DNA of 64,000 nt from positions 1 to 64,000 of the forward strand of contig CACIJH010000001.1 in the NCBI GenBank assembly GCA_902586905.1. The letters are read 5' to 3'. Positions 50,078 through 56,205 of the stretch are shown piece after piece. Within the stretch, counting starts at the first letter, position 1, and each line of letters starts with the position of its first letter. The notes under the pieces are model-generated. The model saw nothing but the letters and a program-made list of their open reading frames with translations. It was not told the DNA's origin and made no database searches. The position numbers and the translations under genes were made by a program. The DNA comes from an uncultured Bacteroidota bacterium (lineage in GTDB: Bacteria > Bacteroidota > Bacteroidia > Flavobacteriales > Flavobacteriaceae).

Positions 50078-52279
50078 ATGATACCAAAAGTATACACTGA
50101 GTCCATTGACTTAGGAGATGGTCGGACAATTACCATAGAAACTGGTAAGCTGGCCAAACAAGCAGACGGTTCTGCCGTCATTCGCATGGGCAACGCCATG
50201 CTACTTGCCACAGTCGTTTCGGCAAGACAAGCTTCAGATGTAGATTTTCTACCATTAACTGTTGATTACAGAGAGAAATTTGCTGCTGCTGGGCGTTTTC
50301 CGGGTGGCTTTTTTAAAAGAGAAGCGCGTCCAAGCAACGAGGAAATTTTAACCATGAGATTGGTGGATCGCGTTTTGCGACCACTGTTCCCAAAAGACTA
50401 TCACGCGGAAACGCAAGTCATGCTACAATTGATGTCGCATGATGAAAATGTAATGCCAGATGCGTTGGCTGGATTGGCTGCATCGACTGTGATTCAGTTG
50501 TCAGACATCCCATTTGAATATCCGATTTCGGAGGTGCGAGTGGCTAGAATTGACGGAGAATTTGTCGTCAATCCGAGTCGTGAGCAATTGCAAGAGTCAG
50601 ATATTGATATTATGATCGGTGCAAGTGCAGACTCTGTAGCCATGGTTGAGGGAGAATTTGATGAGGTTTCTGAGCAGTGTATGGCAGATGCCATCCGTTT
50701 TGGTCATGAAGCCATCAAAAAGCAAATCGAAGCGCAAGTTCGCTTGGTTGCCGCTGTAGGTAAAAAAGAAACACGTACCTACGAAGAAGAAAATCATGAC
50801 CAAGCTGTAGAGAAAAAAGTTCATGCGTTTAGCTATCAAACGTGTTATGACATTGCCAAGCAAGGACTTTCGAAGAAAGATCGTGGCGAAAAGTTCTCTG
50901 AACTAAAAGGAGCTTTATTGGCTGAATTTTCAGAAGAAGAGCAAGAAGAACATGGAAAATTGATTTCCAAATATTTTAGTAAAACACAAAAGGAAGCTGT
51001 ACGAGAACTCGTTTTGGCGGAAGGCATTCGCCTTGATGGTCGTGAAACGACCGATATTCGTCCGATTTGGTGTGAGGTCGATTATTTGCCCTCAACCCAT
51101 GGGTCTTCTGTCTTTACTCGTGGAGAGACACAAGCACTGGCAACAGTAACGCTAGGAACTTCAAGAGAGGCAAACATTATTGATTCTCCTTCGAATCAAG
51201 GGGAAGAAACCTTTTATTTACACTACAATTTCCCTCCATTTTGTACAGGTGAAGCACGACCATTACGTGGGACATCTAGACGTGAAGTTGGGCATGGTAA
51301 CCTTGCGCAACGTGCACTTAAGATGGTGATGCCAGAAGAATCGCCATATACAGTACGTGTGGTGTCTGAGGTTCTTGAATCAAATGGTTCATCTTCCATG
51401 GCGACAGTATGTGCCGGGACGATGGCATTAATGGACGCTGGTGTTCAAATCACAAGTCCTGTTTCTGGGATTGCAATGGGTTTAATCTCTGATGGCGATC
51501 GTTTTGCTGTTCTTTCAGATATCTTGGGAGACGAGGATCACCTTGGTGATATGGACTTTAAAGTCACGGGGACAGACAAAGGAATAACGGCTTGTCAGAT
51601 GGACATTAAAATCAAAGGGTTGTCGTATGAAATTTTGATACAAGCTCTAGAACAAGCGCGTGAGGGTCGACTACACATCCTTGAAAAACTGACAGATACG
51701 ATTGAGGTGCCTGCTGATTCGATTAAGGCACATGCGCCAAAAATGATCAACTGTAGAATTCCGAACGAGTATATTGGACCATTTATCGGCCCAGGTGGTA
51801 AGGAGATTCAAAATCTTCAGCGTGAAACAAGCACGACCATCGTGATCAATGAAGACCCTGATACACAAGAGGGAATTGTTGAAATTCTAGGAACCGATCA
51901 AGAGGGTATCGATCAGGTACTCGCGAAGATTGATGCGCTGACCTTTAAGCCTGAAAAAGATGAGGTTTATAAGGTAAAGGCGATTAAGATTCTAGAATTT
52001 GGTGCAGTGGTTGAGTATTTGGAAGCGCCTGGCAATGAAGTTCTTTTGCACATTAGCGAAATGGCTTGGCAGCGCACAAACGCTGTGACCGACGTTGTGA
52101 ATGTTGGTGATGAGTTTGAGGTGAAATACTTAGGCTTTGATCCACGTACCAGAAAAGATAAAGTGTCATTAAAGGCACTGCTTGAAAAGCCTGAGGGTTA
52201 TGTCGAGCGCCCACCAAGAAAAGGTGGCGGTGGCGGTCGAGATCGAAGAGGCGGTCGAGACAATCGCAACAGGAGATAA
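50078..52279 (+). CDS. pnp: Polyribonucleotide nucleotidyltransferase (PNPase)
   Basis: The 733-residue phosphorolytic 3'-5' exoribonuclease has two RNase PH domains: [23 protein letters not shown] early, and [15 protein letters not shown] with [30 protein letters not shown] later. A KH domain ([16 protein letters not shown]) and an S1 domain ([22 protein letters not shown]) follow. The extreme C-terminus is a Gly/Arg-rich tail ([19 protein letters not shown]). It acts in mRNA turnover. A strong terminator follows the stop. Confidence 0.97.
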
Positions 52280-52285
52280 TTTTTC

Positions 52286-52311
52286 AAAACCCCCTTTTTG
52301 GGGGTTTTTTT
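52286..52311 (+). terminator. Rho-independent terminator of rpsO-pnp
   Basis: AAAACCCCC (52286-52294), a five-T loop, then GGGGGTTTT running into a seven-T tract (52305-52311). A textbook intrinsic terminator directly after pnp. Confidence 0.95.
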
Positions 52312-52360
52312 ATTACCTTGCTTTGCTCAATTCATTGTTAGTTTCCAAAATTTAATCCCC

Positions 52361-54049
52361 ATGAAAACGTATATTTTCATCATCCTTCTGATCGCCGCCC
52401 AGCTATATTCACAAGATCGCATAACTGGTGAGCTTTTTGCGACACGGTCGGAAGTCATTGCCCAAAATGGTATGGTGGCTTCAAGCCATCCTCTTGCCAC
52501 ACAAATTGGAATTGATGTCCTGAAAAAAGGAGGGAATGCCATCGACGCTGCCATTGCTGTAAATGCAGCTTTGGGGCTCATGGAGCCAACTGGCTGTGGG
52601 ATTGGCGGTGATCTATTTGCCATTGTTTGGGATCCTAAAACAAAAAAGCTGCATGGCTTAAATGCCAGTGGCCCTTCACCTCAGTCGCTTTCTTTGGATT
52701 TTTTCCTTGAAAACAATTACGAAGGTATCCCCTATTACGGCGCTTTGCCTGTCAGCGTTCCAGGAGCAGTTGCAGGTTGGATTGCCTTACACGATAAGTT
52801 TGGCAATCTTACAATGGATCAAATCCTCTCCCCTGCGATACACTATGCCGAAAATGGTTTTCCACTTACCGAGCTCATCGCGTATTATATGCAACGGTCT
52901 GTTCAACGATTTGTTAGAGCCAATTACCCAAATATCAAAGAAACCTATATGGAACCAAATGGTGGAAAACTGCCAAGTGAAGGTGAGATTTTCAAAAACC
53001 CGCTTTTGGCCAAAACCTATAAGACCATAGCAAAAGAAGGTAAACAAGGGTTTTATAACGGAAAAATTGCTCTTGCGATTGCAGAAGAGGTACAACAACA
53101 GGGCGGGTTTTTGACCACAGCAGATTTATCTTCTTTTGAAGTGGAGTGGGTTGACCCCGTATCGATCAACTACAGGGGATACGATGTTTGGGAACTTCCT
53201 CCAAACGGACAGGGAATAGCCGCACTGCAAATACTCAAAATTTTAGAGGGTTATGACTTTTCAAAAATAGATTTTGGAAGTGATGAGCATATCCACCTGT
53301 TTACCGAAGCAAAGAAACTTGCTTTTGAAGACCGCGCCAAATTCTATGCAGATATGTCCTTTGCAGATGTTCCTATCAAGACATTATTAAGTGAATCTTA
53401 TGCCGATCAAAGAAGAGCGTTGATCAAAGAGAAAGCGTCGATGTATTCCGCAGGACAAATCAGTGCGGGCGAAACGATATATATGACTGTTGCGGACAAG
53501 GATGGGTATATGGTGTCTTTGATCCAAAGCAATTACTTTGGCATGGGTTCAGGCGTTGTGCCACAAGGAGTCGGTTTTATGCTTCAAAATCGCGGTGCAT
53601 TATTTAGTTTAGATGAAAATCATGCTAATGTCTACGCACCTAGCAAACGCCCTTTTCACACGATTATCCCAGCTTTTGTAACCAAAGATGGTATTCCGTT
53701 TTTGAGTTTTGGCGTCATGGGAGGGGATTTTCAGCCCCAAGGTCATTCGCAAATTGTGATGAACATTGTTGACTTTGGAATGAACACGCAAGAAGCAGGC
53801 GATGCCCCAAGATGGGATCATAAAGGGTCTTCCAGCCCAAGAGGAAATCAAGCGACAAACAATGGAAAAATCCGTGTAGAATCTGGGATTTCTTACGAAA
53901 CAATTCGCCAACTGATGTCTCGCGGACATGATGTCGGATTTACCATAGGAGAATTTGGAGGCTATCAAGCGATCTTATGGGACGAGAAAAACCAAGTGTA
54001 TCGCGGTGCTTCCGAAAGCAGAAAAGACGGACAAGTCAGTGGATATTAA
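52361..54049 (+). CDS. ggt: Gamma-glutamyltranspeptidase
   Basis: The protein has 562 residues with signal peptide MKTYIFIILLIAAQLYSQ. The Ntn-hydrolase precursor matches GGT: VASSHPLATQIGIDVLKKGGNAIDAAIA and PTGCGIGGDLFAI in the large subunit. The autoprocessing/catalytic Thr is at about residue 372 in GETIYMTVADKDG, followed by SLIQSNYFGMGSG and GAGG-type FGVMGGDFQPQGH. It hydrolyses or transfers gamma-glutamyl from glutathione in the periplasm. The start is taken after the pnp terminator; the longer frame begins inside the terminator loop. Confidence 0.94.
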   Translation: MKTYIFIILLIAAQLYSQDRITGELFATRSEVIAQNGMVASSHPLATQIGIDVLKKGGNAIDAAIAVNAALGLMEPTGCGIGGDLFAIVWDPKTKKLHGLNASGPSPQSLSLDFFLENNYEGIPYYGALPVSVPGAVAGWIALHDKFGNLTMDQILSPAIHYAENGFPLTELIAYYMQRSVQRFVRANYPNIKETYMEPNGGKLPSEGEIFKNPLLAKTYKTIAKEGKQGFYNGKIALAIAEEVQQQGGFLTTADLSSFEVEWVDPVSINYRGYDVWELPPNGQGIAALQILKILEGYDFSKIDFGSDEHIHLFTEAKKLAFEDRAKFYADMSFADVPIKTLLSESYADQRRALIKEKASMYSAGQISAGETIYMTVADKDGYMVSLIQSNYFGMGSGVVPQGVGFMLQNRGALFSLDENHANVYAPSKRPFHTIIPAFVTKDGIPFLSFGVMGGDFQPQGHSQIVMNIVDFGMNTQEAGDAPRWDHKGSSSPRGNQATNNGKIRVESGISYETIRQLMSRGHDVGFTIGEFGGYQAILWDEKNQVYRGASESRKDGQVSGY

Positions 54050-54072
54050 AACTTAATATTAACAATAAGACC

Positions 54073-54129
54073 ATGAAAAAAATCACTCTATTTATATTTG
54101 TGCTCGTAAGCACACAATGCACAACTTAA
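54073..54129 (+). pseudogene. Detached N-terminal signal sequence in frame with the S9 peptidase
   Basis: ATG at 54073 encodes MKKITLFIFVLVSTQCTT, an 18-residue lipoprotein-like signal (basic N-terminus, hydrophobic core, Cys near the end). A TAA at 54127-54129 follows, and then immediately the ATG of the S9 peptidase in the same frame. The simplest reading is that a single sense-to-stop change separated a secretion signal from the peptidase. The lipobox (V-S-T-Q-C) is not perfect. Alternatively the short frame could be a leader peptide, or the stop could be read through. Confidence 0.6.
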
Positions 54130-56205
54130 ATGCAACAACCACCATTCGCCAAACAAGTCCCAAAGACTTTAGAAATTCACGATGACAAACGCATGGATCC
54201 CTATTTTTGGATGCGATTGAGCGACGAGCAAAAAGAAGCCAAACAAGCAGACAGTCAGGCGCAGGATGTACTGGACTATCTCCATGCGGAAAACGACTAC
54301 CGCAAAGAAGTGATGAAGCCCACCGAAAAGCTTCAAGAAACGCTCTATGAAGAAATCATTGGGCGAATCAAGCAAGATGATTCTTCGGTTCCAGTTACGG
54401 TGAATGGCTACACCTACTACACCCGATTCGAACAAGGACAAGACTACCCTTATCATTGTCGGAAAAAAGCCGTCGAGGACAGCGATGAAGAAGTGATGCT
54501 CGATGTTCCCAAAATGGCCGAGGGGTTTGCCTATTATTCCATTAGCGGGCGAAGTGTAAGCGAAAACAACAAAATCCTTGCCTACGCAGTTGATACTGTT
54601 TCGAGAAGGGAATATACCTTGTATTTCAAAAATTTGGAAACAGGTGAAATCCTTTCAGATAAAATCGAAAATACCACTGGCGGCATCACTTGGGCCAATG
54701 ACAATCAAACTGTTTTTTATGTCAAAAAAGACCCTCAAACTCTTCGTGCATATCAAATTTTTAAACACCGATTGGGTACAGACACCAGTGATGATGAACT
54801 CGTTTATGAAGAAAAAGATGAAACTTTTTCATGCTGGATTTCAAAGACAAAGTCACGTCAATACTTGATGATTGGTGCGAGTCAAACGCTATCAACAGAA
54901 TATCGATTTTTGGATGCCAATACCCCTGATGGCAAATGGCAAGTGGTTCATCCACGTGAGAAAAATCTAGAGTACTTTGTCGATCATTACAAAAACGATT
55001 TTTATATCATTACAAACGATCAAGCCAAAAACTTTCGCTTGATGAAAACACCAGTTAATCGCCCTCAAAAATCAAATTGGACTGAACTTATCCCCCATCG
55101 TGAGGATGTGTTGTTGGAAGATATTGAAATTTTTAAATCCCATCTTGTTGTCAACGAACGACACAATGGTCTTTCGCGCCTTCGGATTATGACATGGGAC
55201 AATAACAATGAACATTATATTTCGTTTGATGATCCAACCTATGCTGCTTGGATTTCAGCAAATCCAGAGTTCAATTCAACACAACTCCGCTTTGGATATA
55301 GTTCATTAACAACTCCAACGTCGATATATGATTATGATCTAAACACCAAAGAGAAGACACTCAAAAAACAGGATGAAGTGTTGGGTGGTACGTTCGATTC
55401 GCAAAACTATCTTTCCGAGCGCATCATGGTTCCCAGCAGAGACGGATCGGCAAATATCCCTGTGTCTTTGGTCTATCACAAAGACTTTGAAAAATCGGGT
55501 GATGAACCACTCCTCCTCTATGGTTATGGATCTTATGGAAATACCATAGACCCTTGGTTTAGCTCGGCACGATTGAGTCTGCTTGATCGTGGTTTTGCCT
55601 TTGCCATTGCACATATTCGTGGAGGGCAAAATCTAGGTCGCTCGTGGTACGAGGATGGAAAACTCCTAAAAAAGAAAAATACATTTTATGACTTTATAGA
55701 TGTTGGGAATCATTTGGTACAGCAGGGTTATACCTCCACTGATCACTTGTATGCCCAAGGTGGCAGTGCAGGTGGTTTGCTGATTGGTGCTGTGATCAAC
55801 ATGGCGCCGGACCTGTTCAATGGTGCCATTGCTGCAGTGCCTTTTGTCGATGTTGTTTCGACCATGCTCGATGAAACCATACCCCTGACCACTTTTGAGT
55901 TTGACGAATGGGGAAATCCAAAAAACAAAGAATACTACGACTATATCAAGTCGTACTCCCCTTATGACAATGTCGAAGAAAAGGACTACCCTCACCTATT
56001 GATCACCACTGGCTATTGGGATAGTCAGGTGCAATACTGGGAGCCTGCAAAGTGGATTGCCAAATTGAGAGATAAAAAAACGGACGATAATTTATTGTTG
56101 ATGGATTGCAATATGGAGGTTGGTCATGGAGGCGCTTCAGGTAGGTTTAAGCGATACAAAGAGGTGGCTCTTTCCTATTCTTTCTTACTTCATTTAGAAA
56201 AATAA
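54130..56205 (+). CDS. S9 family prolyl oligopeptidase (protease II / PtrB-like)
   Basis: The 691-residue serine peptidase has an N-terminal beta-propeller starting PKTLEIHDDKRMDPYFWMRL. The C-terminal alpha/beta-hydrolase domain carries Ser546 (GGSAGGLL), Asp631 (GYWDSQV) and His666 (EVGHGGAS). The segment IAHIRGGQNLGRSWYEDGK is typical of oligopeptidase B. Homologues in Flavobacteriia commonly have a lipoprotein signal. Here the in-frame signal sequence just upstream ends in a stop codon, so the protein as annotated would stay in the cytoplasm. Follows ggt by 80 bases. Confidence 0.9.
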   Translation: MQQPPFAKQVPKTLEIHDDKRMDPYFWMRLSDEQKEAKQADSQAQDVLDYLHAENDYRKEVMKPTEKLQETLYEEIIGRIKQDDSSVPVTVNGYTYYTRFEQGQDYPYHCRKKAVEDSDEEVMLDVPKMAEGFAYYSISGRSVSENNKILAYAVDTVSRREYTLYFKNLETGEILSDKIENTTGGITWANDNQTVFYVKKDPQTLRAYQIFKHRLGTDTSDDELVYEEKDETFSCWISKTKSRQYLMIGASQTLSTEYRFLDANTPDGKWQVVHPREKNLEYFVDHYKNDFYIITNDQAKNFRLMKTPVNRPQKSNWTELIPHREDVLLEDIEIFKSHLVVNERHNGLSRLRIMTWDNNNEHYISFDDPTYAAWISANPEFNSTQLRFGYSSLTTPTSIYDYDLNTKEKTLKKQDEVLGGTFDSQNYLSERIMVPSRDGSANIPVSLVYHKDFEKSGDEPLLLYGYGSYGNTIDPWFSSARLSLLDRGFAFAIAHIRGGQNLGRSWYEDGKLLKKKNTFYDFIDVGNHLVQQGYTSTDHLYAQGGSAGGLLIGAVINMAPDLFNGAIAAVPFVDVVSTMLDETIPLTTFEFDEWGNPKNKEYYDYIKSYSPYDNVEEKDYPHLLITTGYWDSQVQYWEPAKWIAKLRDKKTDDNLLLMDCNMEVGHGGASGRFKRYKEVALSYSFLLHLEK

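Follow-up and report, generated by a model that had tools for sequence, protein, structure and literature searches.

A single G-to-T change in the lineage of G000, the metagenome-assembled genome that bears the 64,000-nucleotide window (the whole stretch of DNA analysed), has probably severed the export signal of a complete oligopeptidase B (OpdB)-like enzyme, which would now be made from ATG 54130 and stay in the cytoplasm. Such an event, in which an intact peptidase probably lost its export signal recently and by one base change, is ordinary in kind. GAA, the last codon before an internal Met, would have become TAA; the 18-codon signal would now be a free peptide, if made at all, and the complete enzyme would arise from the adjacent ATG, either because ribosomes initiate there independently or because they terminate at TAA and then resume. 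Ribosomes of E. coli can restart when stop and start lie very close together (PMC10666635), which supports restart at ATG 54130.

An earlier, sequence-only reading had described a TAA that parts a secretion signal from an in-frame S9 peptidase without a spacer, and the sequence and its translation bore this out. On the forward strand, one frame runs from the ATG at 54073-54075 through an export-signal remnant (MKKITLFIFVLVSTQCTT; 18 codons, 54073-54126, Cys at codon 16) to the TAA at 54127-54129, and the ATG at 54130 opens a complete 691-residue serine peptidase of the S9A type (54130-56205). The remnant is identical to the first 18 residues of the G005 protein (L005). Twelve other genomes of the genus were compared, of which 10 carry the gene, and in all 10 a homologous signal is joined in frame to the same enzyme, so the arrangement in G000 is more than chance.

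No stop was found at the TAA site in any of the 10 gene-bearing congeners, and their frame is open throughout the signal. The corresponding codon is GAA in eight (L002 and L004-L010) and AAA in G010 (L003); in G009 (L011) the alignment is shifted at the site, with the frame open and an ATG just upstream. A 71-base pattern (54073-54143), with base 54127 left open as N, was matched to G005, and 70 of the 71 bases were identical, the sole difference being base 54127 itself, which is G in G005. Because no congener has the stop and G005 differs at this one base, the sense-to-stop change is private to G000 among the genomes compared; the recent change that had been proposed can thus be given as GAA to TAA. 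That no congener has the stop and that G005 differs by one base over 71 both support a lost signal.

A second private change, ATC to TTC (I6F) at 54145, lies 18 bases past the changed base of the TAA. Phe occurs at this residue in none of the other sequences among the 119 surveyed, and the proximity of I6F to the TAA could point to errors in this spot or to a loosening of constraint.

The open reading frame from 54130 matches PF02897 at residues 5-414 and PF00326 at residues 476-688, so that a beta-propeller N-terminal domain and an S9 catalytic domain span its full length, as expected of OpdB. The catalytic triad is intact (Ser546, Asp631 and His666; codons at 55765, 56020 and 56125), its motifs GGSAGG, GYWDSQ and GHGGAS align with those of solved OpdB, and the alignment to the OpdB structure PDB 7ywp covers query residues 3-689. 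The score against the NCBIfam equivalog NF007511 was 801.6 bits, below the cut-off of 1313, and the enzyme is therefore named OpdB-like and not OpdB. Cleavage after Arg or Lys is a further mark of OpdB. An open reading frame that spans all of OpdB with an intact triad supports a cytoplasmic enzyme, as do the signal-less paralogues of other genera (L132-L135), which have a similar start point and accompany signal-bearing copies (L013, L017, L015 and L012). The proposal that the stop converts the protein into a cytoplasmic one is plausible since ATG 54130 coincides with the start of cytoplasmic OpdB. PF00326 had no other match in G000, which is itself an incomplete genome.

The enzyme had also been described as lipid-anchored before the change. 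The comparison supports an upstream export signal; lipidation is uncertain across the genus. The signal Cys is invariant in the genus, and the residue before it is Q in eight of the 10 congeners, K in one and N in one. By contrast, 76 of 83 other S9 orthologues have S, A or G at this position, as do 22 of the 27 lipoprotein-like signals examined on the genus's contigs. The G000 remnant reads STQC, without the G, A or S of a lipobox, and the TAA at 54127-54129 cuts it off from the mature protein, to which a lipoprotein signal should be joined in frame. With a non-canonical lipobox throughout the genus, lipid anchoring was doubtful even before the stop arose. A published survey of prolyl oligopeptidase homologues reported signal peptides in 78% of the 'Bacteroides' members and predicted periplasmic as well as cytoplasmic forms (PMC4522959).

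The G010 gene has ATA where the export signal of the others begins with ATG, and just before its internal ATG it has AAA instead of GAA; the exported form may have been lost here a second time, independently. Within the genus, pN/pS was 0.12 for the enzyme body versus 0.78 for the signal codons. The high signal ratio, the ATA of G010 and the odd lipobox suggest that constraint on export may already be weak across the genus.

In the tree of the S9 family, the window gene falls in a clade of 38 rows with an SH-aLRT support of 99. All its other rows were scored as signal-bearing and the window gene alone was not, in further support of a lost signal. Across the family, 10 changes of label between signal and none were needed, at least six of them forced by well-supported branches; these counts are approximate, because a heuristic assigned the labels and got a few of them wrong (L146 was scored 'none' despite a visible signal, and L003 'signal' despite its ATA). 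Repeated gain and loss of the signal makes the family suitable for studying enzymes that move between compartments. In another family of the order, one S9 orthologue (L014, G041:C19) is broken by an in-frame TAA at residue 82.

No single tree fits all of the S9 gene, as it is mosaic. In the 250-base profile, identity to G005 was 92-99% from about 52250 to 54565, and both flanks of this tract were 90-99% identical to G010 and 74-91% to G005. This G005-like tract, set in a backbone that resembles G004 and G010, takes in a putative gamma-glutamyltransferase-like gene, named by eye (52361-54049, forward strand), as well as the 5' end of the S9 gene. Within the latter, diagnostic sites switch from G005-like to G004-like at 54561-54571 (CDS offsets 431-441), which places the TAA inside the tract, about 430 bases from the breakpoint. 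We take the mosaic to be the product of homologous recombination, in preference to chimeric assembly, which would need two switches. The transferase-like gene ends 23 bases before ATG 54073, and from the list of open reading frames and this spacing the two genes are probably co-transcribed; no promoter-like site was found in 53900-54300.

An explanation compatible with signal loss holds that two starts predate the change throughout the clade, the upstream ATG giving an exported form and ATG 54130 a cytoplasmic form, so that the stop removes the exported form only. This is possible, if the less favoured account. In nine of 10 congeners and in 12 of 13 neighbouring orthologues codon 1 is itself an ATG, and the rest have one within four codons, compared with an ATG near the junction in 21% of control windows; in the neighbouring set Met occupies codon 1 in 13 of 14 sequences amid variable codons at -5 to -1 and +2 to +4, although all these rows share ancestry and the counts are not independent. 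A Met kept after the signal in the wider clade despite a variable linker hints at an internal start. The two-start account also fits the finding of at most one close match in each congener, with no second close OpdB-like copy in any of them, and it fits G010, which has lost the upstream ATG and has A at -3 of the internal one. Against it, 24 of 80 other orthologues (30%) have an ATG near the junction, barely above the 21% of the controls and not an enrichment, and the initiation context is unremarkable. The TAA itself puts U at -3. In Flavobacterium johnsoniae, initiation benefits from A at -3, and highly translated starts have U there less often (PMC6847099), which counts against use of ATG 54130. 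A broader proposal, that in a Flavobacteriales clade a start codon right behind the OpdB-like signal lets one gene yield both an exported and a cytoplasmic enzyme, and that point changes (the G000 stop and, in G010, a lost upstream ATG) leave the cytoplasmic one only, is tentative and somewhat more doubtful. Searches of the literature on dual-start bacterial peptidases, OpdB lipoproteins in Bacteroidetes and signal loss by nonsense change yielded nothing directly relevant.

The TAA could instead come from a faulty consensus or assembly, or represent a minority allele, with the living population carrying GAA and exporting the enzyme; we consider this possible but less likely. G-to-T changes are a common damage-type error. 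The G000 assembly (1.35 Mb) is in 42 contigs and about 70% complete, two sequence types meet within the gene, as chimeric assembly could yield, and I6F is only 18 bases away; the incomplete metagenome-assembled source and the nearby private change also weigh against the preferred explanation. On the other side, a chimera requires two switches 2.3 kb apart, and the TAA is about 430 bases away from the breakpoint. When 79 open reading frames of G002 and 39 of G006 were compared with the 140-kb contig, this was the sole stop within a real-looking G000 gene, and the remaining flagged stops fell in antisense-like reading frames or at the last residues. The lack of any other disrupting stop among the compared genes argues against a poor consensus, as far as the one contig covered, and supports a stop that would be present in living cells.

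That the gene is decaying towards complete loss is improbable. The signal is broken in different ways in two of the 11 genomes of the genus with the gene, and I6F is private, as decay would allow; the body, however, is intact, its pN/pS is the 0.12 given above, and past the breakpoint it differs from G004 at 7, 2 and 37 sites by codon position. Readthrough of the TAA, or a short reading frame acting as a regulatory leader peptide, both raised by the sequence-only reading, found no support and are very improbable: the stop does directly abut the start, but the short frame is homologous to the signal that every congener with the gene fuses to the enzyme in one frame, and the leader was rejected on the absence of promoter-like and terminator-like sites and of marked RNA structure.

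Loss of the signal by a single base change thus remains the preferred explanation. Taken alone, a nonsense change private to one metagenome-assembled genome is ordinary; here a change of compartment would have been caught at a single-base step, with a near-identical relative at hand to compare. The case also points to a two-start arrangement open to testing. Such a switch may be easy in this genus because a start codon already lies directly behind the signal.

Compared with known systems, the window enzyme resembles oligopeptidase B (MEROPS S9A; PDB 7ywp, 7ne4) in its full-length alignment (residues 3-689), catalytic motifs and N-terminal start point, and differs in its NF007511 score (801.6 versus the cut-off of 1313). 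The signal-bearing S9A peptidases of Flavobacteriales, with lipoprotein-type signals, form the clade that includes the window gene, whose upstream remnant is a homologous signal; in the window gene, however, a stop severs that signal, and in its genus Q, K or N precedes the Cys. Other Flavobacteriaceae have OpdB-like paralogues without a signal (L132-L135), which start close to the point where ATG 54130 falls, but they lie elsewhere in the tree, and the window gene, unlike them, still shows its upstream signal.
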